Below, piece by piece: positions 464-11,942 of a DNA stretch of 53,682 nucleotides. How positions within the stretch are numbered: the stretch's first letter is position 1; each line of letters begins with the position of its first letter. The DNA lies in contig RGZI01000002.1 of the NCBI GenBank assembly GCA_010031635.1, positions 1 through 53,682 on the forward strand. Direction: 5' to 3'. Source of the DNA: Actinomycetota bacterium (GTDB taxonomy: Bacteria > Actinomycetota > Actinomycetes > Nanopelagicales > Nanopelagicaceae). A model generated the notes under the pieces. It was given only the letters and a program-made list of their open reading frames with translations. It was not told the DNA's origin and searched no databases. The position numbers and the translations under genes are program-made.

Positions 464-2221
464 ATGAGAGTCAAGGCGTTCAAGGCATTAGCTGAAAAAC
501 TGAAACCGGCTGAACCAGCAGTAGGTTTCGCAATTCGCGACGACAGAGTTTTAACACAAATTTCTGGAATTACTGGAGCCACTAAAGGCACTCACACAAC
601 CAATTTAGCTTGCGATACGGTCTCAGATCCCAAATGTGCTACTGCTTCAAACTTAAGAGTGATGGCAGTACTTCCACCATGTGCACCAGATGCAGCGTTA
701 ACCGATGTCTGCATCAAAGCTGTACGCACCGGTGATTCGGCAGGAAATTTTCAAGATGCAAAACTTCAATACGAAATCAATACCTTTAAATTCCCCAAAA
801 ATAGTAAATATAATTTACCGGCTGGTGGGGGAATAAGCGTTTGGCGCGGTCAGACCATCAAAGGTACCCAATTAGACTTTTCAGTAGCGGTTGACTTGCA
901 AATTAATTTTAATACCAAGCAAAGTGGCAAAAGTGGGACCGCGACTATAGGGAATTCTCCAGATGGATATGAGAGCGATGTAATTGGCTTTAGTGCGCAG
1001 ATATTGCCAACAAAGGTAATAACTGGAAATTACTATCCTGCTAAACACGACGCCACAAAGAGCGCGAGCAACCCACAAGGTTATGAATTCGAAGTATTAG
1101 ACAACCCTGGCAAAGGTCCGGAAGATAATTATCGTGATTGCATTTGGCATGACTTAGGTAGATGCGGAATGCCAGAGACATTTTTTGGAGATCAGCCAAT
1201 TGAATTAGTTTTACAAATGGATAGTCAAGTTAGTGGTTGGATATTCGGGCGAATGAAAAATGTCATTGCGTCCTCTAAGTCACTAAGTAAAACCACATCA
1301 CTGGTTAGTGTCAGTGGCCAATCTATTAATGTCCCATCTGGAGTTTCCTGGGTCCCAGTAAAAGAGTTTGATAATTCTTTGGGGTTGAAGGAAATGAATT
1401 GGGATAACCGAGCCCAAAAAGCCTCAGGGCAGATCATGTGGAGCGAACCATCAAACCATCCTGACTTATTTGAATTCCCCAGATTTGGTATTCCACCAGA
1501 GATGGGCGGTGGCGTTCACGAACCAAATCCCAAACTCAAAAATGCGGGTGGGTTTTTACAGGCAGTTGAACCATGGTTGAAAACATCTGAAGTAACTCCG
1601 ACTTGGCGTTTTCAAGGCATGGATCCTTCATCTTTTTGGGGAATGGATCAAAGTCAAGGAAATAAAGTTTTTGAATGTACGGTCAAGGACACAAGCAAGT
1701 TGCATGGAGTTATGACTACAAACGCCATGGCATATAGCTGGAGCCCACCGGCATTTAAAGATGGAGTTCTAAGTTACAAAGTTGCTGGTGCACACCATGA
1801 TGTTGATGGATCAGTATTCAAAGGAACTTATGACTTAGCGATGAACCAAGAATCTGCGAAATGTATTTATGGGTTCACTGATGCTCCGATCAAAGCATCT
1901 GTTTCGGTAGTGAGTTCTGATGGGGGAGTTCAAGAGATTGCTACTGAAATGCTCACAGTCAAAAATGGATGGCTGCAGTTAAGTGCAAAGAATTTTACTT
2001 TTTCGGCCCCAACTATTCGAATAAAACTATCTCAGGAGAATTCAGTAAAAGCAGCGGTCACTTCTACCGATACCCAGAATACAAGTAAGAATGAGGACAA
2101 GGTTGCTGCTCCGGTTACAGCGCCGAAAAAGATAAAGGTAATCAACTGCGTGAAAGGAAAAGTGATTCGCAAGATATCGGGTGTAAATCCAAAGTGTCCG
2201 ACTGGATTTAAGGTCAAATAG
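464..2221 (+). CDS. Unknown large protein with C-terminal Cys/Lys tag
   Basis: I do not recognise the main body of this 585-residue protein. It has several Cys residues and Gly/Asn/Ser-rich beta-like stretches, as exported proteins often do, but no signal peptide: the N-terminus is charged (MRVKAFKALAEKLKP) and an in-frame TAA directly precedes the ATG, so no upstream start is available. A ribosome site (GGGGAG) sits 6 bases before the ATG. A Lys/Thr/Ala-rich linker near residues 530-555 leads to a last 24-residue block with Cys at block positions 1 and 17, Gly12, Pro15, CP at 17-18, G-F-K at 20-22 and a final Lys. The same block ends two other proteins in this window. It converges with the CAP-domain gene, with the two stop codons 2 bases apart. 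Confidence 0.7.
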   Translation: MRVKAFKALAEKLKPAEPAVGFAIRDDRVLTQISGITGATKGTHTTNLACDTVSDPKCATASNLRVMAVLPPCAPDAALTDVCIKAVRTGDSAGNFQDAKLQYEINTFKFPKNSKYNLPAGGGISVWRGQTIKGTQLDFSVAVDLQINFNTKQSGKSGTATIGNSPDGYESDVIGFSAQILPTKVITGNYYPAKHDATKSASNPQGYEFEVLDNPGKGPEDNYRDCIWHDLGRCGMPETFFGDQPIELVLQMDSQVSGWIFGRMKNVIASSKSLSKTTSLVSVSGQSINVPSGVSWVPVKEFDNSLGLKEMNWDNRAQKASGQIMWSEPSNHPDLFEFPRFGIPPEMGGGVHEPNPKLKNAGGFLQAVEPWLKTSEVTPTWRFQGMDPSSFWGMDQSQGNKVFECTVKDTSKLHGVMTTNAMAYSWSPPAFKDGVLSYKVAGAHHDVDGSVFKGTYDLAMNQESAKCIYGFTDAPIKASVSVVSSDGGVQEIATEMLTVKNGWLQLSAKNFTFSAPTIRIKLSQENSVKAAVTSTDTQNTSKNEDKVAAPVTAPKKIKVINCVKGKVIRKISGVNPKCPTGFKVK

Positions 2222-2223
2222 AG

Positions 2224-3637
2224 TTATTTGCTCTTGTAACCCGAAGGGCATTGAGGCTTGTAGCCCACATATCTTTTTTCTACACCTGCCTTGAAGCAGC
2301 GTATTACGGTATTTGATTTCGTGGTCAACCTTGTAATTTGAGTAAAGAGTGATTTTATCTTTCAAATACGCAAAATCTCCAACCCATGGGTACGAGGCTT
2401 TTAATATTTGTGGTGTTTCGATTCCGGGGCCATAAAAACAACTGGGCTCAGCAATTGAAAATAAACGCGTTTCAACCGAGACACAAAATAGTTTGTTCTT
2501 CAAATCATTACCTAGATTAAATGATGTGAAAGACTTGTTATCATCAGTTGTAGTGAACTCATCTACTGTTTTAGCGACTTGATCTTTCACTTTTATCGTA
2601 TATCCCAAAACCGGGTCTTCGGAAAGGCCGCGAATATCTTTCCACTCTAAATCTTTACCATTTTTTGATACGAAGGAATGAGTCGCAAGTGGGGCGGTCA
2701 AGATGTTAAAACTCCAAGTTATATCTTTTTGACCTGGTTGCGTGATCTTGGCAGTATGAAAGCCGTAGCCTAAAGGGTTCCGTGCAAACATAACTACCAT
2801 GTGATCATTACTTAAGATTGGTCCAAGAGCTCCACCATAAGCTTCATCTGTGGTTTTGAAGTTATTCTCTGTTACGACACAAAGATTTTCACTGTCATCA
2901 AAAGTAACCCCATCTGGTGTAGTTAAAGAGGCCTTCAGATTTTTGTGAGGTTCTTTCAATAAAGAAGCGATGATCGCTAATCCATGAAAAGATTTCCAAT
3001 CACCAGCGCAGGATTCACGGGGCTCTGGAACTTCATTTCCGTCAAATGAATTTAATTTTACAGTTGATCCATCTCCTGGAAAAAGAATGACTTTACTTCG
3101 TTTCTCTTTAGATAACCCACTTAAGGTACTGAAAGTGTGTACAAAGGAATCTTTTCCATCCTCAGGTGAAAAGCCATATCCAGTTGTTTCAAGATTCTCA
3201 CGTAAAAATCCGATTGCATGAATCGGTGCTCCCATTAACTGATGAACCGAATTTGCAGCGCTATCAGAGCTGGACCAAGCAATCTGTCCTGCACCATCGG
3301 TGATTCCTTCTTCAGTTGCGTACGGACTATCCGGATTTTCTTTATGTTTATTCTCATACACACCCGTAAAGTATTTTTCAGGAGTCTTCCCAACATATAT
3401 TGCGTGTTTTTTTGCTGCCGCAGAAAATGCTTTGACCTCTTTAACTGGCGAGACCCCTGAAGCGATCCGATAGTAATTTAAGGTTTCCAACCAAGTTGCA
3501 GATTTCCCAGGTACTGGATTTGCATTAGATTCTAGATTTGCAGCAGCCATCGCAGGTGAGCAAACAGAAGTGAACAGTAAAACAAGAGCCACCCTTGCTA
3601 ATTTAATACGAGATATTTTAGCGCTGCTAATTATCAT
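2224..3637 (-). CDS. Secreted CAP (SCP/PR-1) domain protein, frameshifted near its C-terminus
   Basis: The N-terminus is a signal peptide: a basic start, a hydrophobic core (VALVLLFTSV) and an Ala-rich cleavage region near residues 28-33. A CAP-type domain follows (LNYYRIASGVSPV, then SAAAKKHAIYV and further family-like blocks). CAP proteins are extracellular with varied roles. The uninterrupted frame would run to 2042, overlapping the convergent gene by 180 bases. However, one extra A in the A4 run (+ strand T's at 2353-2356) shifts the frame. Removing it gives a protein that stops at 2224 and ends in the same 24-residue tag (CFK...GYKPQCPSGYKSK) seen in two neighbours. I therefore give the corrected end. 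The start overlaps the stop of the upstream lactonase gene (ATGA), so the two are probably co-translated. Confidence 0.7.
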
Positions 3638-4509
3638 CTCTTCAGCTCATTATCTAGTTTGCCTGATACCGGCAAATCTACCCGAAAACAATCCCCACCC
3701 ATTTCTGAACCAAAATTGTATTGCGGGTCAAATGTAGTTTTAGCTGAAGTTATAAAGAGAGTTTGCAAATTGGGCCCACCAAAAGAACAACAAGTAATTA
3801 ATGCTGTTGGACATTGAATCGTGTTGAGGAGTTGTCCAGCCGGCGAATAATTTCTCACTTGACCAGCACCCCAAATAGCTACCCAAAGGTTACCTTCGTT
3901 GTCGGTGCACATTCCATCAGGCACCCCGGGAGAATCAGTCAGGGAGATTGGTTTCAAAGCGGCTCCCAATGTATTAGTACTAGCGTCAAACTCATATTTC
4001 TCAATAGATTTAATTGGTGAATCTATGTAGTACATGATTTTTGAATCAGGCGACCAATCAATTCCATTAGATATCGCAACATTTCGTTTAGCAACAAAAG
4101 CAAGCAAATTATTATCTAAGTGGAAAAGATTAGCTTTTGCATTACCTTCAATGACGTCAGCTGTTCCAATCCATAATCTTCCGAAATGATCAATATTTCC
4201 GTCATTTGTATTTTCGATCTTTGCATCTAAATTGAGATCTGTTTCTTCTTCAACTTCAAAATTTTCATTAAGTAAATAAATATGTTTGACACTTGCCACG
4301 ACAAATCCTGATCCGGCGCGTTTACCTATATAACTGACATTCCACGGCATTTGGTGGTGGGAGATTAGATTACTAATTGGGTCATAACTCTTGATCAAAT
4401 TTTTATAAACATCGACCCAAAGGAATTTTTGAATTCGCTCATCCCACAATGTACCTTCACCTAAATTAGAGTTTGAGCCTATTACAGGGACGGCTTCGTA
4501 GACGGACAT
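3634..4509 (-). CDS. SMP-30/gluconolactonase family sugar lactonase
   Basis: A six-bladed propeller hydrolase of the SMP-30/regucalcin/gluconolactonase family, which opens sugar-acid lactones using a divalent metal. The expected ligands are visible: Glu in LGEGTLWDE near residue 18, Asn in SNGIDWSPD, and Asp in PDGMCTDNEGNLWVA. The length of 291 residues is normal and no signal peptide is present, so it is cytoplasmic. It is divergent from the dehydratase gene on the other strand with almost no gap. With the nearby dehydrogenase and dehydratase it fits an oxidative, non-phosphorylating sugar pathway. The physiological substrate is not readable from sequence. Confidence 0.85.
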   Translation of the reverse strand: MSVYEAVPVIGSNSNLGEGTLWDERIQKFLWVDVYKNLIKSYDPISNLISHHQMPWNVSYIGKRAGSGFVVASVKHIYLLNENFEVEEETDLNLDAKIENTNDGNIDHFGRLWIGTADVIEGNAKANLFHLDNNLLAFVAKRNVAISNGIDWSPDSKIMYYIDSPIKSIEKYEFDASTNTLGAALKPISLTDSPGVPDGMCTDNEGNLWVAIWGAGQVRNYSPAGQLLNTIQCPTALITCCSFGGPNLQTLFITSAKTTFDPQYNFGSEMGGDCFRVDLPVSGKLDNELKR

Positions 4510-4555
4510 CTTGCCTCCCCCTCAATCTCCCATATTATACTTCCAGGTAGTTATA

Positions 4556-5713
4556 TTGGAAGGAGTAAAAATAATTAAAGTTGTCGGTTTTGAAACATTT
4601 TTAGTTAACATTCCTTATAAACGTACTGAAGTTTCTTCTATTGTTTTCCGCGGTGGGGTTACATCCGTTTTGGTCAAGTTAACTACCGATGATGGAGTTG
4701 TAGGCTGGGGCGAATCTTGTGTCGGTGCCGACGCTCATTCAATTGATGCCGCGATGCAAGCCATGTGGCCCTTTGTGAAAGATCGTTCACCTTGGGATCA
4801 TGAAGATATTCGTGCAGATCTATTCAAGCGTGGATTGTGGGCGCTTAGATCTTCAACCGGTAATTATGCCTGGGCCGGTTTTGATATGGCGCTGTGGGAT
4901 ATTTGTGGGAAAAGCGTAGATAAGCCAGTTTATGAGTTACTTGGTGGCGCAGTGCGGGATAACGTGAATTACTTTTATTACTTAACTCACGGAGATCTTG
5001 ATGATATTGAGAGTCAATGTAATGAAGGCATGTCTCTAGGCTATGAAACTTATTATCTGAAAACTGGAATAGATTTTGAATCTGAATTGCAAATGATTGA
5101 GAGAGTTAGAAACATTATTGGTTCAAAAAATAGGATTCGAATAGATTCAAACGGAGCTTGGAGTGCGCAAGATGCGCCTCGTTACCTAACAGCTTTTGAA
5201 AAGTTTTCGATAGATTTTGCCGAACAACCTGTTCGTGAGCATCCAATGTCTTTAATGCAAGATTTACGAAATAACACGAATGTGCCGCTAGCGGCTAATG
5301 AGGGATTGTGGTCCGAGGAAGATGCAAATAGATTGATCACAAACCGTGTTGCAGATGTATATACATTTTCTCCCTATTGGGTGGGAAGTTTACGAAAGTT
5401 TCAGCAAGTTGCGTATGTGGCAGAGATGATGGGAAGTTTAGTTTGTCGTCATACCCATGGTGAGTTAGCTATAGCTGCCTCTGCATTTCATCACGTGAGT
5501 TTAACGATCCCTAATTTAGTAGAAGGAAATCAACAAACAGCTGCACATATGGGCAATGATATTTTAGATAAAGCGATCCCTATAGCGTCTGGTCCTAATT
5601 GGGGATTGCCAACCGAAAGTGGTTTAGGAGTAAAAATCAACCAAAAAGCACTGGATGAAGCGGTATCAGATTTCAAAATTAATGGGCAATTCCTTCCATA
5701 CGGCCAGATTTAG
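4556..5713 (+). CDS. Mandelate racemase/muconate lactonizing (enolase superfamily) sugar-acid dehydratase
   Basis: An enolase-superfamily TIM barrel. With TTG 4556 as start, the metal ligands are Asp197 (RIDSNGAW), Glu223 (FAEQPV) and Glu249 (AANEG). The general-base Lys169 lies in YLKTG, where the first Lys of the usual K-x-K motif is Tyr, and His299/His301 lie in CRHTHGE. The family removes a proton alpha to a carboxylate, so sugar-acid dehydration fits the neighbouring lactonase and sugar transporter. The start is uncertain: no ATG or GTG exists near the conserved N-terminus. TTG 4556 and the longer TTG 4511 are candidates, and a GGAAGGAG just after 4556 could instead serve an ATA or ATT codon at 4571-4574. 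Confidence 0.8.
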   Translation: MEGVKIIKVVGFETFLVNIPYKRTEVSSIVFRGGVTSVLVKLTTDDGVVGWGESCVGADAHSIDAAMQAMWPFVKDRSPWDHEDIRADLFKRGLWALRSSTGNYAWAGFDMALWDICGKSVDKPVYELLGGAVRDNVNYFYYLTHGDLDDIESQCNEGMSLGYETYYLKTGIDFESELQMIERVRNIIGSKNRIRIDSNGAWSAQDAPRYLTAFEKFSIDFAEQPVREHPMSLMQDLRNNTNVPLAANEGLWSEEDANRLITNRVADVYTFSPYWVGSLRKFQQVAYVAEMMGSLVCRHTHGELAIAASAFHHVSLTIPNLVEGNQQTAAHMGNDILDKAIPIASGPNWGLPTESGLGVKINQKALDEAVSDFKINGQFLPYGQI

Positions 5714-5764
5714 TACTAACCTTCAGGAAAATGTGCACTTTATAAGCAGACCGAAAGGCGTGAA

Positions 5765-7117
5765 ATGAAACTAGGAAAACAAAAATATGTTGTGGCGGCT
5801 GTAGCTGCACTATTTAGTTTAGTGCTGGCATCATGTTCCTCCTCTTCCAATACTTCAGATTCATCCGCAACGGAAGACACAACAGCTGCTAAAGCTGTTG
5901 ACTTGACCTGGTGGTGGTGGGGTACCGGTGACGTCCCCAAGATGAATACTTGGGTTGAATGGGTAGCTAAGGCATATGAAGACTCTCACCCTGGAGTAAA
6001 AATTAATTTTGAAGAAAGAACCGACACTGATATCACAACTGCCTTTGAAGCAGCTGCTGCGGCAAAGAAAGGCCCAGATATTGCACCAGCATGGGCGAGT
6101 GCACCAGTGCTTACTCAAGTATGGGCAAACAATATTGAGCCACTCGATGATTTAGTTGGCGCTGATGAAATGGGAAATTGGTTAAACGTTGCTGAAAATG
6201 CCTACGAAGGTAAAACTTGGGCAGCGCCAATTTACATAGTCGGATTGCCAATTGCCTTTAATAAATCTTTGTTCGCAAAGGCAGGAATAGATGCAACTAA
6301 ACCGCCAGCTACATGGAAAGAATTCCTTGGGTTCTGCACCTCACTAAATAAAGCAGGCATCACTCCAATTGTTGGTGGAAACCGCGCCGGATTTGAAGGT
6401 TCGTGGTGGTTTGCACATTTAGGTAAGCAATATATGGATTCACCTGCTGATTTGCAGAAAGCTGCATTGAGTGGTGACTTTAAGCGAATTGGGCAATGGT
6501 CTGATCGATTTAATGAGATGTTTGAAAGTAAGTGCTTTAATAAAGACGTAAACTCTTTAGAGTTGCAAGAAAAATATGACGTCTTTAATAAAGGTGGAGC
6601 CGCAATGGTTCTAGCAATCGATGGTGCCGCTATTGGAGCCTCAGAAGCAATTGGTGCGGAAAACTTTGGAACTATGGTTCTCCCTGCATTCGGTGATGGA
6701 AAAATGGCCGAGTACTACACCGCCACGCAATCAATTTCGCACTTCATTACTTCTTGGAGTCCGAATAAAGAAGTGGCTGCTGATTTCATTAAGTTCTGGC
6801 ACACAACTGAATCACTAAATAAGTGGGTTGAATTAACAGGAGTTATGCCTGCCGATTCGCGATTTGATCAGTCAACTGTTACTGATCCAGTTAAGCAACA
6901 ACTATTTGCGCTTAATGCAAAACCAAGCGTGTGGTTGAGCAACTTTGAGCCAGGTCCGGTTTTTGAACAAGCAGATCTAGCTGGAGGGCAATTAATAAGC
7001 ACCAGAAAAGGCGTAGGTAAGGACAACACAGCATTATGGGTGAAAGCCTCTAAAGGTTGGGTTGAACAAAAGCCTGAGGAAGTTGCAAACTTCAAGAAAT
7101 GGGCTGGCGTAAAGTAA
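5765..7117 (+). CDS. ABC sugar transporter solute-binding lipoprotein (family 1)
   Basis: An extracellular sugar-binding protein of the MalE/UgpB type. A lipoprotein signal ends in LASC with the modified Cys at residue 24, followed by a Ser/Thr-rich linker. The mature part begins with a Trp-rich strand (LTWWWWGTGD) and contains the family pattern for carbohydrate-binding proteins, such as GLPIAFNKSLFAKAGID and the later WHTTESLNKWVE. The length (450) is typical. It is preceded by GAAAGGCG as ribosome site and followed by a strong terminator before the permease gene, an arrangement that commonly gives excess binding protein over permease. The ligand is inferred only to be a sugar or sugar acid. 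Confidence 0.88.
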   Translation: MKLGKQKYVVAAVAALFSLVLASCSSSSNTSDSSATEDTTAAKAVDLTWWWWGTGDVPKMNTWVEWVAKAYEDSHPGVKINFEERTDTDITTAFEAAAAAKKGPDIAPAWASAPVLTQVWANNIEPLDDLVGADEMGNWLNVAENAYEGKTWAAPIYIVGLPIAFNKSLFAKAGIDATKPPATWKEFLGFCTSLNKAGITPIVGGNRAGFEGSWWFAHLGKQYMDSPADLQKAALSGDFKRIGQWSDRFNEMFESKCFNKDVNSLELQEKYDVFNKGGAAMVLAIDGAAIGASEAIGAENFGTMVLPAFGDGKMAEYYTATQSISHFITSWSPNKEVAADFIKFWHTTESLNKWVELTGVMPADSRFDQSTVTDPVKQQLFALNAKPSVWLSNFEPGPVFEQADLAGGQLISTRKGVGKDNTALWVKASKGWVEQKPEEVANFKKWAGVK

Positions 7118-7126
7118 AGTAATTCA

Positions 7127-7175
7127 AAATGCCCCCGGTTTAGTTCGAAAGAATTAAATTCGGGGGCATTTTTAT
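7127..7175 (+). terminator. Rho-independent terminator between binding protein and permease
   Basis: A perfect 11-bp stem (AAATGCCCCCG at 7127-7137 with CGGGGGCATTT at 7161-7171) is followed by T's. The inner part can fold further around TTC-GAAA-GAA, giving a long hairpin capped by a GAAA tetraloop. It lies inside the transport operon, 14 bases before the permease start, so partial read-through would lower permease relative to binding-protein mRNA. Confidence 0.85.
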
Positions 7176-7189
7176 GGGAGGATCTTGAA

Positions 7190-8998
7190 GTGTTACTAAC
7201 CGAAAAGCGAAATCATATTTATCTGAATATTCGCAACCTGGTTCAGGGTGCTTCATACACAGTATGGGCTATCGGCTTGATGTGCTTAGTCTTTGCTTAC
7301 CCCCTGATTAATGTAATTTTACTAGCCTTTAAGCGGGCTGGGAAGTTCGTAGGATTAGATAATTACAAAGCATTGCTTTCTGATTCCGTCTTTCACGACT
7401 CTTTGAAAAATAACTTAAAATTACTGCTACTCGTTCCGATTATTATTTTCCTAGCTTTAATCCTCGCAGTTATTATCAATGAAAGACCAAAGGGATGGAA
7501 ATTTCATAGATTTTCGATATTAATTCCTTTTGTATTGCCAATCCCGGTTTCTGCAATAGCCATTGCGGCAATCGTTGCTTATCGCGGTGGCTTGAATAGT
7601 TTTTTCGAAAAGGTGGGATTAGATTTTCTGGTATTGGATTGGCTCGGTCAGGGAAACACAGCCTTTTTTATCATTGCGTTTGCTTTAATCTGGCGTGAAA
7701 TTGGCTTTTGTGCCATTTTAATTTTCTCTCGATTGGGAAATATAGATAATGAAATAGTTGAAGCGAGCGAACTCGACGGCGCTGGTTGGTGGAGGAAATT
7801 GCAGCACGCAATTTTGCCACAAATTTCTGGAGTTTTAATAACAATTGTTGTTTTGGAAATTATTACGGTCTTTTTTTACACTTTTGAATGGGTATATGTT
7901 TTGACTCGGGGTGGTCCTGCAGGTACCACGATGGTGGTTGATCTTTACATATTCCAACAAGCTGTTGCTTTTAGATCAATTGGAATTGCGACTGCAGCAT
8001 CAAGCAGTATTCTTGCATTACTAGGATTAAGTTTTCTTGGTACTAGAGTTATTAGAAGAATTCTAAGTGAGCGTAAATCTAAAGCACAAAGACACCTTTA
8101 CATTGCAGATAATTCATTAATTGCAAAAAGTAATATTAAGAAAACTTTTAAGCAGAACAATCTATTCATCACAAAATTTGTGAATTTAATTAATTTATTT
8201 TTACGGCAAGGTTTAATGTGGAGTTTCTCGTTTTTGTTTGTACTCCCACTATATTTTATTATTGTAAATGCTTTTAAATCTAAGAGTGATTACGGGGATT
8301 CTCCTTGGTCTATACCGATACACCCAACGATCGCATCCTTTAAGGAAGCGTTCGGCAGGGGAGAAATCGCAACATGGTTTAGAAATAGCGTAGTAGTTAG
8401 TTTTGGCGCGGTATGCCTCATAACAATTAGTGCAGTTTTAGCAACTTACTATGTCTCTACAGGTTCAAAAAGATTTAGTAAATTTTTTAGAAGAAGTTTT
8501 ATCCCTTTGATAGCCATTCCGCCGATTATTATGATAATTCCACTCTTTGTTTTATTCAGCAACTTGGGATTGATCAATACTTTTTCGGGAGCAATTATTG
8601 TCTTTTCTGGTTTGCTTCTCCCCTTTAGTTGCTATCTCTTATTAGGCTTTTTTGACACCTTTCCGCGTGAAATAATCGAGGCTGCCTCAGTGGATGGCGC
8701 AAGCAAATTTAGAACATTACTTCAAGTTATTTTACCTAGTGCAAAACCGGTAATTGGGACACAGTTTGTGATTAATTTGCTTTATGTGTGGAATTCACTT
8801 TTAATCGTTTTAATTTTCTTACAAGGGGATGACAGACGTACTTTGTCTGCTGGTATAAGTATTTTTCAAGGTCGCTTTTTCCGAGACACACCATTAGTTA
8901 TGGCCGCGTCATTGCTAGTCGTATTGCCGATGTTCCTTGTTTATTTATTTGCTCAACGTTCTTTCCGCAAAGGTTTGATGGCGGGTGCAATCAAGTAA
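7190..8998 (+). CDS. Fused ABC sugar permease (MalF-like + MalG-like in one chain)
   Basis: This 602-residue membrane protein contains two complete binding-protein-dependent permease units. The first half carries an EAA loop near residue 190 (EASELDGAGWWRKLQHAILP). The second carries another near residue 496 (EAASVDGASKFRTLLQVILP). These are the sites where the ATPase docks, and family members are normally two proteins of about 300 residues each. A basic linker around residues 290-345 joins the halves. The start is GTG with GGGAGG 8 bases upstream. It ends overlapping the epimerase gene (TAATG). No ATPase gene is present in the window, so a shared MsmK/UgpC-type ATPase elsewhere is likely. 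Confidence 0.9.
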   Translation: MLLTEKRNHIYLNIRNLVQGASYTVWAIGLMCLVFAYPLINVILLAFKRAGKFVGLDNYKALLSDSVFHDSLKNNLKLLLLVPIIIFLALILAVIINERPKGWKFHRFSILIPFVLPIPVSAIAIAAIVAYRGGLNSFFEKVGLDFLVLDWLGQGNTAFFIIAFALIWREIGFCAILIFSRLGNIDNEIVEASELDGAGWWRKLQHAILPQISGVLITIVVLEIITVFFYTFEWVYVLTRGGPAGTTMVVDLYIFQQAVAFRSIGIATAASSSILALLGLSFLGTRVIRRILSERKSKAQRHLYIADNSLIAKSNIKKTFKQNNLFITKFVNLINLFLRQGLMWSFSFLFVLPLYFIIVNAFKSKSDYGDSPWSIPIHPTIASFKEAFGRGEIATWFRNSVVVSFGAVCLITISAVLATYYVSTGSKRFSKFFRRSFIPLIAIPPIIMIIPLFVLFSNLGLINTFSGAIIVFSGLLLPFSCYLLLGFFDTFPREIIEAASVDGASKFRTLLQVILPSAKPVIGTQFVINLLYVWNSLLIVLIFLQGDDRRTLSAGISIFQGRFFRDTPLVMAASLLVVLPMFLVYLFAQRSFRKGLMAGAIK

Positions 8999-9795
8999 TG
9001 ATGATCTGTTCTGAGCAAATCAAAATAATGGTCGAGCCTGAATTTGGTGGCAGAATTACAAATCTGTCTCGCATCCGGGGTCAAGAATGGCTGGCGCCGG
9101 CGCATGCTCCATTGGTAGCACGCGCTTTTGGTGAGGTTTACATCAGGCCTGAGATGGGGGGCTGGGACGAAATGTGCCCAACAACCGATGAATGTATTGG
9201 TTTTGATGGCAAGGAATTGCCCGATCATGGTGAAGCTTGGAGCAGGTCATGGGAGGTAATACAAAAATCCAATTCTTCAGTGACTCTTTCAGTTGATTTA
9301 ACATCTCGTCCTTTGCGATTGGTACGTAAAATTGATATTGCTGGAAACGAGGTTTTGCTTTCCTATGCAATTGAAAATATCGGAAACTCTTCAACACCGA
9401 TTTTCTGGTCGGCACACCCATTATTTGACGCAACCGAGATTGTGGAAGTCGTACTCTTACCTAAAGATGTAATCAATAAAGAACTTTTAGCCACAAATCT
9501 TCTCAAAGGTACTTCTGCCGAACATTGGATTTCTCCAGGGGTATTTATCAATAGGGTTGAATTGCATAAATCAAATAAAGAGAAGTTATCTATCTCTTGG
9601 GACAATCAAGAGATCCCATATTTTGGAATCTTTATCGATAATGGTGAATATTGCTTCGACCCTGTTATCTCTCCGCAGCCGGCAATAGGACATAAGGTCT
9701 CCGAAAAAAATGCCTACGAAAGTGGAAATATTGAGATTTTACTTCCTGGTCAAGTTAAACAATTTGAATTAAAACTAAAACTTGAAGAAGTTTAA
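8998..9795 (+). CDS. Aldose 1-epimerase (mutarotase)-like protein
   Basis: Resembles the galactose-mutarotase fold: an early GGRITNL strand, the DHGEAWSRSW segment around residue 80 and a WSAHPLFD segment near residue 140, where family members place catalytic His residues. It would interconvert sugar anomers, supplying the right anomer to the dehydrogenase. The length (265) is slightly short for classic GalM but normal for the wider aldose-epimerase family. Its ATG overlaps the permease stop codon, indicating co-translation, and it converges with the dehydrogenase gene by a 4-base overlap. The sugar specificity is unknown. Confidence 0.72.
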   Translation: MMICSEQIKIMVEPEFGGRITNLSRIRGQEWLAPAHAPLVARAFGEVYIRPEMGGWDEMCPTTDECIGFDGKELPDHGEAWSRSWEVIQKSNSSVTLSVDLTSRPLRLVRKIDIAGNEVLLSYAIENIGNSSTPIFWSAHPLFDATEIVEVVLLPKDVINKELLATNLLKGTSAEHWISPGVFINRVELHKSNKEKLSISWDNQEIPYFGIFIDNGEYCFDPVISPQPAIGHKVSEKNAYESGNIEILLPGQVKQFELKLKLEEV

Positions 9796-10550
9796 GCTTT
9801 TTCCGCGGTGTATCCGCCGTCCACGGTTAGGGTCGTGCCGGAGATGTATGAAGCGCGCGAAGAGGCTAGAAAGCAAACAGCTTCTGCTACTTCTTCTGGC
9901 TTTCCCATCCGCCTAAGTGGAGTGTTAGAAGTTACTAGATTGCGATACTCATCGGTCGTGTCATCCCAAATCGGAGTCAAAATTGGTCCAGGCAATACCG
10001 TGTTGACTCGAATCTCAGGTCCGTAATCAACTGCTAATTGGCGACCAAATGCAACCATCCCACCTTTTGAAGCAGCGTATGCGCCATGATGAACGAACCC
10101 AAAATTTGCGTGGATTGAAGAGGTATTAACAATCGCACCATGATTTTTCTTTAAATCCGACAAAAATGTTAATACAGACATTTGCATTGAAACCAAATTT
10201 ACTGAAATTTGCTTTTCCCATTCAGCAATACTTGTTTCACTAGTGGATTTTTCGATTTTCATGAAAGCATTGTTATGAACAACGTTCAGCTCACCAAGTT
10301 TGGAATGGATCTCATCTCTCACATTCTCCCAATGCGTCATATTTGACACATCGTGCAAAATTGCAATCGCTTTGCCGCCAGTACTATTGATTTCCTCGAC
10401 AGTTTTTTGAGCGGAAGCTAAGTTGATATCAGTAACGGCCACTTTAGCGCCTCGTTTTGCAAACAATTTCGCTGTAGCAGCTCCAATTCCACTTCCAGCA
10501 CCTGTCACTAATGCGACTTGGCCAACGAATTCATTGGAATCGATTTGCAC
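9792..10550 (-). CDS. Short-chain dehydrogenase/reductase (probable sugar dehydrogenase)
   Basis: A classical SDR of about 252 residues. The NAD(P) loop is TGAGSGIG, an Asp follows beta-2 (VAVTD, favouring NAD), the catalytic Ser lies in NTSSIHANFG, and YAASK gives the Tyr/Lys pair. The C-terminus has the usual ISGTTLTVDGGY. I place the start at GTG 10550, preceded by AGGAG at 4 bases. The open frame continues upstream to 10619 only because it reads through a tRNA-Val remnant, which is not plausible protein. In this cluster it would oxidise the imported sugar to the lactone used by the SMP-30 enzyme; this is inferred from context. Confidence 0.85.
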   Translation of the reverse strand: MQIDSNEFVGQVALVTGAGSGIGAATAKLFAKRGAKVAVTDINLASAQKTVEEINSTGGKAIAILHDVSNMTHWENVRDEIHSKLGELNVVHNNAFMKIEKSTSETSIAEWEKQISVNLVSMQMSVLTFLSDLKKNHGAIVNTSSIHANFGFVHHGAYAASKGGMVAFGRQLAVDYGPEIRVNTVLPGPILTPIWDDTTDEYRNLVTSNTPLRRMGKPEEVAEAVCFLASSRASYISGTTLTVDGGYTAEKA

Positions 10551-10576
10551 GTATCTCCTAACAATTTTTATTATTG

Positions 10577-10618
10577 GTGGACGATACTGGTTTTGAACCA
10601 GTGACCTCTTCCATGTCA
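10577..10618 (-). repeat. Partial tRNA-Val(GAC) copy, left end of a 42-bp direct repeat
   Basis: These 42 bases are identical to 11997-12038, the 3' part (anticodon to discriminator) of the intact tRNA-Val(GAC). Only the 3' portion is present, so it is not a functional tRNA. A 3'-tRNA fragment in direct orientation relative to an intact tRNA is the classic att scar of site-specific integration. Confidence 0.9.
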
Positions 10619-10874
10619 CTACTTTAATTATGTAGTTTTAACTTGCACCAATCATATTCCAATATGGGCTAATAACCGATAACAACAATATGCAGGCTCT
10701 TGGTCAATATCTATAAATGGGGTCATCAGGAGTTGTAACCACGAAAATGAGCCTCTCACAGGGGGTTATATGGCTTTTGTGGTGCTAAATCCAGGAGATT
10801 GCAAATGGGAGAATGACAAAGTACTTCCCTTTGAGTCCATGGTGCAGAACAATAGGAATCTACTTAAGGACACC
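10619..10874. other. Intergenic region of the putative element
   Basis: About 250 bases without a confident gene. A T/A-rich stretch around 10700-10720 (TATCTATAAATG) could be a -10 region, but I see no convincing -35. AGGGGG at 10760-10765 followed by ATG 10770 would give the protease a 35-residue N-terminal extension ahead of its signal peptide. I see no integrase remnant. Confidence 0.4.
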
Positions 10875-11942
10875 ATGAAGAAGTACATAGTTCTCGCTCT
10901 TTCATTCACATTGCTATTTCCAATTACTTCATCTTCTGCCGTCGAATTTGGCCAGGACGCAACAGGTGATCCGAACGCTGTTCAAATTCAAGGAAATACC
11001 TCTGGATTTCTCTATTCTGAAAGGATCATTCTCACCGCTGCGCATGTGTTAAGACAATTACCAATTGAACGAAACGGCGATGTTTATGGTGGTTTTGTAT
11101 TTGCACCTGGACTTGCCGACAAGTCCAACGCAAAACGTTACAAGATTATTAAAGCCTTTATTCCTAACACTTTTATTATTTCAGATAACAGTCAAAATAT
11201 TCAAGCAATTGACGACTTTGCAATTGTTGTGATCGACGAAGATATGCCATTAAAGGTAAAGGTAAAGATTGCAACCGAAGATCAAATGAGGAAATTTGTC
11301 AAAGATAAATCTGAGGTAGTAATGATTGGTTATGGACTACAAAGTGGGAGTCAGCGGAAAGATCCACAAGACATCATACGGGCACCTCACAAAATGACTG
11401 GATATCTTTATACGCCAGAAATGATGGCAGAGCATTACCGTCAATATAATCTCAGACCTTGGACGCCTACCGATTGGGGTGTAAATCACAATCAAAAAAC
11501 AGGAAGCATATGTAGTGGAGATTCAGGATCAGGCCACTTTGTTGAGGAAAATTCTGTACGGTATTACGTAGGAACTGCTGGAAACGGTGGAGAATCTTCA
11601 AATTGCAAAGCGGATGGAACCTTTAGTTTCACTCCAGGGGGATTCATGGCTAATTTTACTCCTCCTTATAAATTCCTAGATCTAATCAAGAGTGCCGAAA
11701 CATTCGTTGAAGAACATAAGAAGACGCAGTTGGTAAAGGCTGAAGAAGCACGCCTGGCCGCAGATCTCAAAGCCAAGCAAGAAGTAGAAGCAAAGGCAGT
11801 CGCTGAAGCTAAAGCCAAGCAAGAAGCAGAAGCGATGGCCGAAGCACTTAAGAAAACAACTATTGCTTGTTCAAAGGGAAAATTAGTAAAGAAAGTAACT
11901 GGAGTTAAACCAGTTTGCCCAAAGGGTTATAAGAAAAAGTAA
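10875..11942 (+). CDS. Secreted trypsin-like serine protease with coiled coil and C-terminal Cys/Lys tag
   Basis: Starting at ATG 10875 (AAGGA upstream), residues 1-22 form a signal peptide (hydrophobic core, SSSA cleavage). The S1 catalytic triad is visible as His57 in LTAAHVL, Asp114 in DDFAIVV and Ser217 in CSGDSGSG. The oxyanion glycine is intact, so activity is likely. Residues from about 265 to 325 form an E/K/A-rich heptad-like helix, followed by the 24-residue tag (CSKGK... to GYKKK) shared with two other proteins in the window. A longer start at ATG 10770 has a strong AGGGGG site but would bury the signal peptide. The gene is the only one inside the tRNA-Val repeats. Substrates are unknown. 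Confidence 0.85.
   Translation: MKKYIVLALSFTLLFPITSSSAVEFGQDATGDPNAVQIQGNTSGFLYSERIILTAAHVLRQLPIERNGDVYGGFVFAPGLADKSNAKRYKIIKAFIPNTFIISDNSQNIQAIDDFAIVVIDEDMPLKVKVKIATEDQMRKFVKDKSEVVMIGYGLQSGSQRKDPQDIIRAPHKMTGYLYTPEMMAEHYRQYNLRPWTPTDWGVNHNQKTGSICSGDSGSGHFVEENSVRYYVGTAGNGGESSNCKADGTFSFTPGGFMANFTPPYKFLDLIKSAETFVEEHKKTQLVKAEEARLAADLKAKQEVEAKAVAEAKAKQEAEAMAEALKKTTIACSKGKLVKKVTGVKPVCPKGYKKK

Follow-up and report, generated by a model that had tools for sequence, protein, structure and literature searches.

Why should three genes that encode otherwise unrelated proteins end in nearly the same string of residues? The question is raised by the first 53,682 nucleotides of contig RGZI01000002.1 (the whole of this stretch is hereafter called the window), which belongs to a 1.64-Mb metagenome-assembled genome (MAG) of the Nanopelagicaceae (Actinomycetota; assembly GCA_010031635.1). 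A first-pass annotation, made from the letters alone, had claimed that three proteins encoded here share a C-terminal tag of 24 residues marked by Cys1, Lys3, basic residues 8–9, Gly12, Pro15, Cys17-Pro18, Gly20, Tyr/Phe21, Lys22 and a final Lys24. The translated ends bear this out: a protein of about 585 amino acids with an uncharacterized body (464–2221, plus strand) terminates in CVKGKVIRKISGVNPKCPTGFKVK, a CAP protein encoded on the minus strand (stop codon 2226–2224) in CFKAGVEKRYVGYKPQCPSGYKSK and a trypsin-like protease (open reading frame (ORF) 10770–11942, plus strand) in CSKGKLVKKVTGVKPVCPKGYKKK. These ends align over the 24 residues without a gap, every listed residue is common to all three, and the homology reaches a few residues upstream of Cys1 (consensus K-x-T-I-T-C). 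On the sequence evidence set out below, the tag is a lineage-restricted, modular C-terminal element carried by unrelated secreted proteins.

The three tags are encoded at 2147–2218 (plus strand), 2227–2298 (minus strand) and 11868–11939 (plus strand), and the DNA pattern of the tag core accordingly has three matches in the window against 0.04 expected. That the bodies are unrelated, as had been claimed, follows from BLASTP, in which the product of 464–2218 gave significant alignments restricted to the last 26–27 residues, both with the protease (E = 5e-7) and with an intact orthologue of the CAP protein (E = 4e-5); homology along the whole length, which the first-pass annotation had named as one of the observations that would speak against a tag, was thus not seen. 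The Pfam assignments also differ (CAP, 1.2e-5; Trypsin, 3.3e-11), with nothing above the cut-off in Pfam or NCBIfam for the product of 464–2221, which is a tagged member of a multicopy secreted family of about 570 amino acids.

Within the genome that contains the window, the core DNA pattern has 10 matches and the reversed-pattern control none; a profile of ten of these own-genome tags recovers 14 at E < 1e-7, a count that is partly built from the tags it finds, so that the independent number is the 10 pattern matches. Across the Nanopelagicales, the tag occurs in 116 of 151 sampled genomes (651 copies, 0 to 23 per genome). The strict pattern found no match in 395 other genomes sampled across the phylum, nor did a 64-row tag profile (E ≤ 1e-4) in 295 genomes, likewise from elsewhere in the phylum, the two samples overlapping in genomes. 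Among the matches listed by an exact-pattern scan of GTDB contigs, nearly all come from freshwater actinobacteria, among them Ca. Planktophila lacus, IMCC26077, IMCC19121 and IMCC26103, together with a few freshwater MAGs of the Acidimicrobiia (Ilumatobacteraceae, acIV). Two matches outside the Actinobacteriota, in Saprospiraceae (L091) and Erysipelotrichaceae (L149), look like chance on inspection and were set aside. Genuine tags are also carried by contigs of a Methylopumilus MAG (L109) and a Fonsibacter MAG (L150); both contigs are probably mis-binned, and the former is perhaps phage DNA.

The position of the tag is as constant as its residues. A scan pattern that carries no positional constraint gave 144 tag-like matches in closed ORFs of named genomes, and in 141 of these the tag closes the protein at its very C-terminus (with the stop 2–6 residues past the aromatic residue), which is the opposite of a motif found mainly inside proteins. 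Complete ORFs number 144 among the 197 unique tagged ones. A signal-like N-terminal segment, called by a simple hydrophobicity rule and not by a trained predictor, is present in 141 of these complete ORFs, and a second transmembrane-like segment in none; the consensus of the tag shows no hydrophobic stretch either, in agreement with the earlier claim that none exists. By BLASTP, the tagged bodies fall into 28 clusters, of which the family of about 570 amino acids is the largest (101 members), and the Pfam names among them include trypsin, CAP, fn3, laminin G, kelch, BspA-type leucine-rich repeats (LRR), YHYH, TIG and InlB-type repeats. The profile search proposed in the first-pass annotation therefore turned out as it had anticipated, with many matches, nearly all at extreme C-termini, on proteins with signal peptides and in certain lineages.

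Conservation and charge set the tag apart from the proteins that carry it. Among 51 paralogues of the family of about 570 amino acids, mean pairwise identity is 65% in the tag, 22% in the N-terminal and 45% in the C-terminal part of the body and 26% in the linker, although the tag value is raised by the collection of these members via their tags. The net charge of the tag in the same paralogues has a median of +8 (5 to 10), whereas the bodies are slightly negative on average. The two cysteines are 16 residues apart in 196 of the 197 tagged ORFs, a regularity partly imposed by the fixed search pattern, and a spacing of 14 also turns up in profile searches. Modelled alone with AlphaFold2, the tag gives a confident beta-hairpin (predicted local distance difference test (pLDDT) of about 90), and the hairpin recurs in the model of the 585-residue protein (predicted template modelling score 0.79) at residues 558–564/567–573, with a tag pLDDT of about 91 behind a disordered linker (residues 527–552; 2042–2119, plus strand; pLDDT < 50). 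In the protease, the tag (pLDDT about 90) follows a linker rich in Lys, Ala and Glu (11706–11855, plus strand). The tag is thus predicted to be an autonomous mini-domain of about 27 residues, in which a two-stranded beta-hairpin (T-I-x-C-x-K-G-K / x-x-K-K-V-x-G) would be followed by a C-terminal loop (P-x-C-P-x-G-[YF]-K-K-K), and the invariance and placement of the two cysteines suggest that they form a disulfide.

In keeping with the first-pass annotation, which credited the tag with no described function, the module appears to be undescribed. Searches with the tag gave nothing significant in Pfam, a best value of 0.1 (one member) in NCBIfam and a best E of 0.92 among PDB sequences, and neither tag strings nor topic words retrieved a description from the open-licence literature, although an earlier description elsewhere is possible. 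Although C-terminal surface modules are a known kind, this one appears to differ from known C-terminal tags in combining the lack of a membrane segment with a small two-cysteine fold. The body of the 585-residue protein likewise has no significant match in a fold search against the PDB.

Some proteins carry the tag more than once or away from the end. Two to four copies occur in four proteins: three copies in a protein of IMCC19121 and in its counterpart in Ca. P. lacus, four in the counterpart in IMCC26103 (the tags of these three proteins being less basic and having 20–30 or more residues after them) and two in a 2256-residue protein of IMCC19121 with TIG and InlB-type repeats (L270:990–7760). 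Tags away from the end occur in an LRR-type protein, 110 residues before the terminus, and in a YHYH protein, about 20 residues before it. A DNA pattern for tandem tags matched 10 of 296 genomes, of which only one (G410), judged by the matched sequences, shows a clear tandem and several reflect unrelated reading frames, a figure that is an undercount given that the pattern misses tandem proteins already known from G407 and G408. Rare as they are, tandem and internal copies, as read from the sequences, are difficult to square with a signal whose cleavage is obligatory.

The tag also occurs on viral contigs. In IMG/VR, 56 contigs matched the tag pattern, the tag lying 1–6 residues from the stop in all ORFs read, and the main carriers are a secreted protein of about 562 amino acids and trypsin-like proteases, one of which (on phage contig L224) is 65% identical to the window protease over 300 amino acids. 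On contig L182, the tagged gene stands directly behind that for the terminase large subunit and near UvsX- and RuvC-like genes. WhiB-like genes, described as markers of actinophages (PMC10202952), were recognized by motif in 11 tagged viral contigs and confirmed by Pfam in three of three tested, and we infer that the tagged phages infect Nanopelagicales, an order for which the first phage isolates are only recent (PMC10202952). Relatives of three carrier proteins were not found in named phage genomes. As to the carriers themselves, the protein of about 562 amino acids (L182:9255–10943 and about 30 other viral loci) has neither a PHROGs nor a significant Pfam match, and contig L224 also encodes a tryptophan halogenase and an Hsp20 (3465–5069 and 8299–8718; PHROGs).

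Among bacterial genomes, tag number goes with the family to which the product of 464–2221 belongs. The conserved body domain of this family is present in 38 of the 151 genomes of the order, which have a median of 13 tags (3–23), against a median of 1 (0–8) in the 113 genomes that do not have the family; as 78 of these 113 have at least one tag, the tag is not merely a part of the family. The same division is seen in a comparison of 19 named genomes, with the family in all 7 tag-rich and none of the 12 tag-poor ones. The genome of the window (G000) has 14 matches to the body domain, and three further members of the family there (L297, L298 and L299) have a missing or disrupted tag. In four genomes, a cluster of tagged paralogues adjoins a gene for an extracytoplasmic function (ECF) sigma factor and a conserved gene of 215–234 codons (L269:8871–10173, L273:12260–13508, L283:11678–12926 and L308:974–2222), the product of which has no Pfam or NCBIfam name and which we call a putative anti-sigma gene from its genomic place alone. 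This gene occurs in 24 of the 151 genomes, all within the 38 that have the family (hypergeometric p = 2e-18, ignoring shared ancestry; one of the 24 matches, in G418, is weak); it was found neither in the genome of the window nor in its two sampled genus-mates and is therefore not a general requirement.

What, then, might the tag do? We suggest, giving the idea about an even chance of being correct, that it is a mini-domain for non-covalent surface retention of exported proteins (that is, for binding to the cell envelope). Tagged proteins would be exported through Sec with no other visible anchor, and the tag, held at the end of a flexible linker with a net charge of about +8, would then bind through its lysine face to an anionic envelope component, for which a teichoic-acid-like wall polymer, a lipoglycan or phospholipid head groups are candidates. 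Binding of the wall or of a surface polymer by a disulfide-closed basic loop had also been offered as a possibility in the first-pass annotation. Retention of this kind would keep proteases, CAP proteins, LRR and other repeat proteins and the family of about 570 amino acids on the cell. We favour this reading because it accommodates anchor-free export, a constant positive module on variable bodies, a flexible tether, tandem copies and use by phages; repetition of the tag is what is expected of a binding module and therefore lends it further support. Several observations weigh against it: the end position, near-invariant, is stricter than in most wall-binding modules; one tagged protein (L119) has a lipobox and looks like a lipoprotein that already possesses a membrane anchor; VKOR, a common disulfide-forming oxidase and the only one searched for, was found in none of 19 genomes and was dropped as a disulfide-forming partner; and a fold search of the tag against the PDB returned nothing significant (best E 1.8) and suggested no function.

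Known systems offer partial parallels. Non-covalent wall-binding modules of Gram-positive bacteria (CWB2, GW, SLH, LysM and SH3b) are small, often C-terminal, often repeated and in several cases basic-surfaced. The tag resembles them in being small and in sitting on unrelated exported bodies, but they are larger and represented in Pfam, whereas the tag, of about 27 residues with two invariant cysteines, has no Pfam or NCBIfam model, is normally single and stands at the very end. With LPXTG/sortase signals it shares the C-terminal place on unrelated surface proteins with signal peptides and a basic end, but neither an LPXTG-like motif nor a hydrophobic stretch. PEP-CTERM and MYXO-CTERM are likewise lineage-restricted C-terminal tags with tens of copies per genome, and the MYXO-CTERM motif has, according to PMC11980579, an invariant cysteine reminiscent of the tag; these systems, however, rely on a transmembrane helix, which the tag does not have, and on intramembrane processing enzymes. 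The C-terminal domains of the type IX secretion system (T9SS) of Bacteroidetes are, according to PMC9143113, folded, devoid of a transmembrane helix and used in surface display, and in its predicted fold and its lack of a helix the tag is similar, but T9SS domains are much larger and their cargo crosses an outer membrane, which is absent from Gram-positive-type Actinobacteria.

The first-pass annotation had compared the tag with sorting or anchoring signals (LPXTG, PEP-CTERM and T9SS tags) and raised recognition by a processing enzyme. Of this comparison, the modular C-terminal tag on secreted proteins stands, whereas the likeness to LPXTG and PEP-CTERM processing is weakened. A true sorting signal, recognized by a dedicated enzyme or export component that would cleave the tag or link it covalently to the surface, would account for the strict end position (141 of 144), for invariant residues that run up to the final lysines, for the restriction to few lineages and for the wide range of unrelated cargo. 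Of possible processing enzymes only sortase was tested, and none was identified, which leaves room for another partner. Sortase itself (PF04203) was ruled out: it occurs in 24 of the 151 genomes of the order but in none of those checked by name (G000, G397, G404, G407, G408 and G410), which include the tag-rich complete genomes, and only 4 of the 24 sortase genomes have the family that marks tag-rich genomes, which amounts to no association. Dedicated machinery would also be uneconomical in the genomes that have a single tag, and the predicted self-folding together with the tandem and internal copies speaks for a small module that binds rather than for a signal that is cleaved, the tag moreover having no hydrophobic segment; we therefore consider a sorting signal unlikely. 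A bolder proposal, which we hold only tentatively, is a route of surface display in Nanopelagicales that has not been described before. A dedicated receptor or linking enzyme of the envelope would recognize the tag as a folded, non-hydrophobic C-terminal module, the route would display the family of about 570 amino acids (in some genomes beside the ECF sigma and putative anti-sigma genes), and phages would exploit it to set proteins of their own on the surface of the host.

The remaining explanations dispense with the envelope. A high positive charge on a flexible tether, and bodies of which several look adhesive or lectin-like (fn3, laminin G, kelch, BspA-type LRR and TIG), could instead indicate a module that captures anionic polymers from the environment (DNA, polyphosphate, polysaccharide or dissolved organic matter), but no single extracellular substrate is shared by the proteases and CAP proteins that also bear the tag, and the strict C-terminal place would be left unexplained, so that we regard this as doubtful. 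Even less probable is a cap without a ligand, in which a disulfide-pinned end would guard exported proteins from carboxypeptidases or aid their folding: the compact predicted structure and the end position suit it, but linkers that are long and disordered or rich in Lys, Ala and Glu separate the tag from the body, the fold of which it therefore cannot cap, and stability alone explains neither the fixed lysine pattern nor the tandem copies. That the shared end reflects 3′ gene ends duplicated or recombined recently, with no selected function, seems very improbable; paralogous tandem gene clusters do exist and the three own-genome family members with a missing or disrupted tag are in keeping with it, but the tag is the best-conserved part of highly diverged paralogues, a contrast that contradicts neutrality, and it accompanies about 28 groups of unrelated bodies and also occurs in a few Acidimicrobiia MAGs and on phage contigs.

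The Nanopelagicales (acI) rank with the most abundant bacteria of fresh water and are difficult to culture. For these organisms the tag provides a simple sequence mark by which as many as 23 probable surface proteins from unrelated families can be recognized in one genome, and it would predict the proteins that lie within reach of phage and grazers. It also points to a co-regulated family of secreted proteins in roughly one in four sampled species and may serve as a metagenomic marker for phages of the order. If surface binding is indeed its role, it would be a natural surface-display tag of unusually small size.

Finally, the gene models in the window call for some correction. The protease (10875–11942, plus strand) very probably starts at 10875 (MKKYIVLALSF..., a signal peptide), as judged from the sequence and as in its phage homologue, and not at the beginning of the listed ORF. 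For the CAP gene, the first-pass annotation had invoked a frame correction, and the tag does lie in another frame than the body, but the break is no simple slip: compared with an intact orthologue of 527 amino acids from a genus-mate (L282; the same contig as L131, Baikal-deep-G34), residues 1–439 correspond to 3637–2321 (minus strand, frame −1; the CAP-domain body of the secreted protein) and residues 496–527, with the tag, to 2322–2227 (frame −2), so that about 56 codons are gone between body and tag and the frame switches at the join. The gene at 464–2221, about 89% identical to its orthologue, is devoid of some 24 residues that carry the hydrophobic part of the signal peptide and that are present in the orthologues in L131, L121 and L071. 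Both the break and the lost signal segment may stem from faulty assembly of this fragmented MAG. The convergent order of these two genes is kept in L282.

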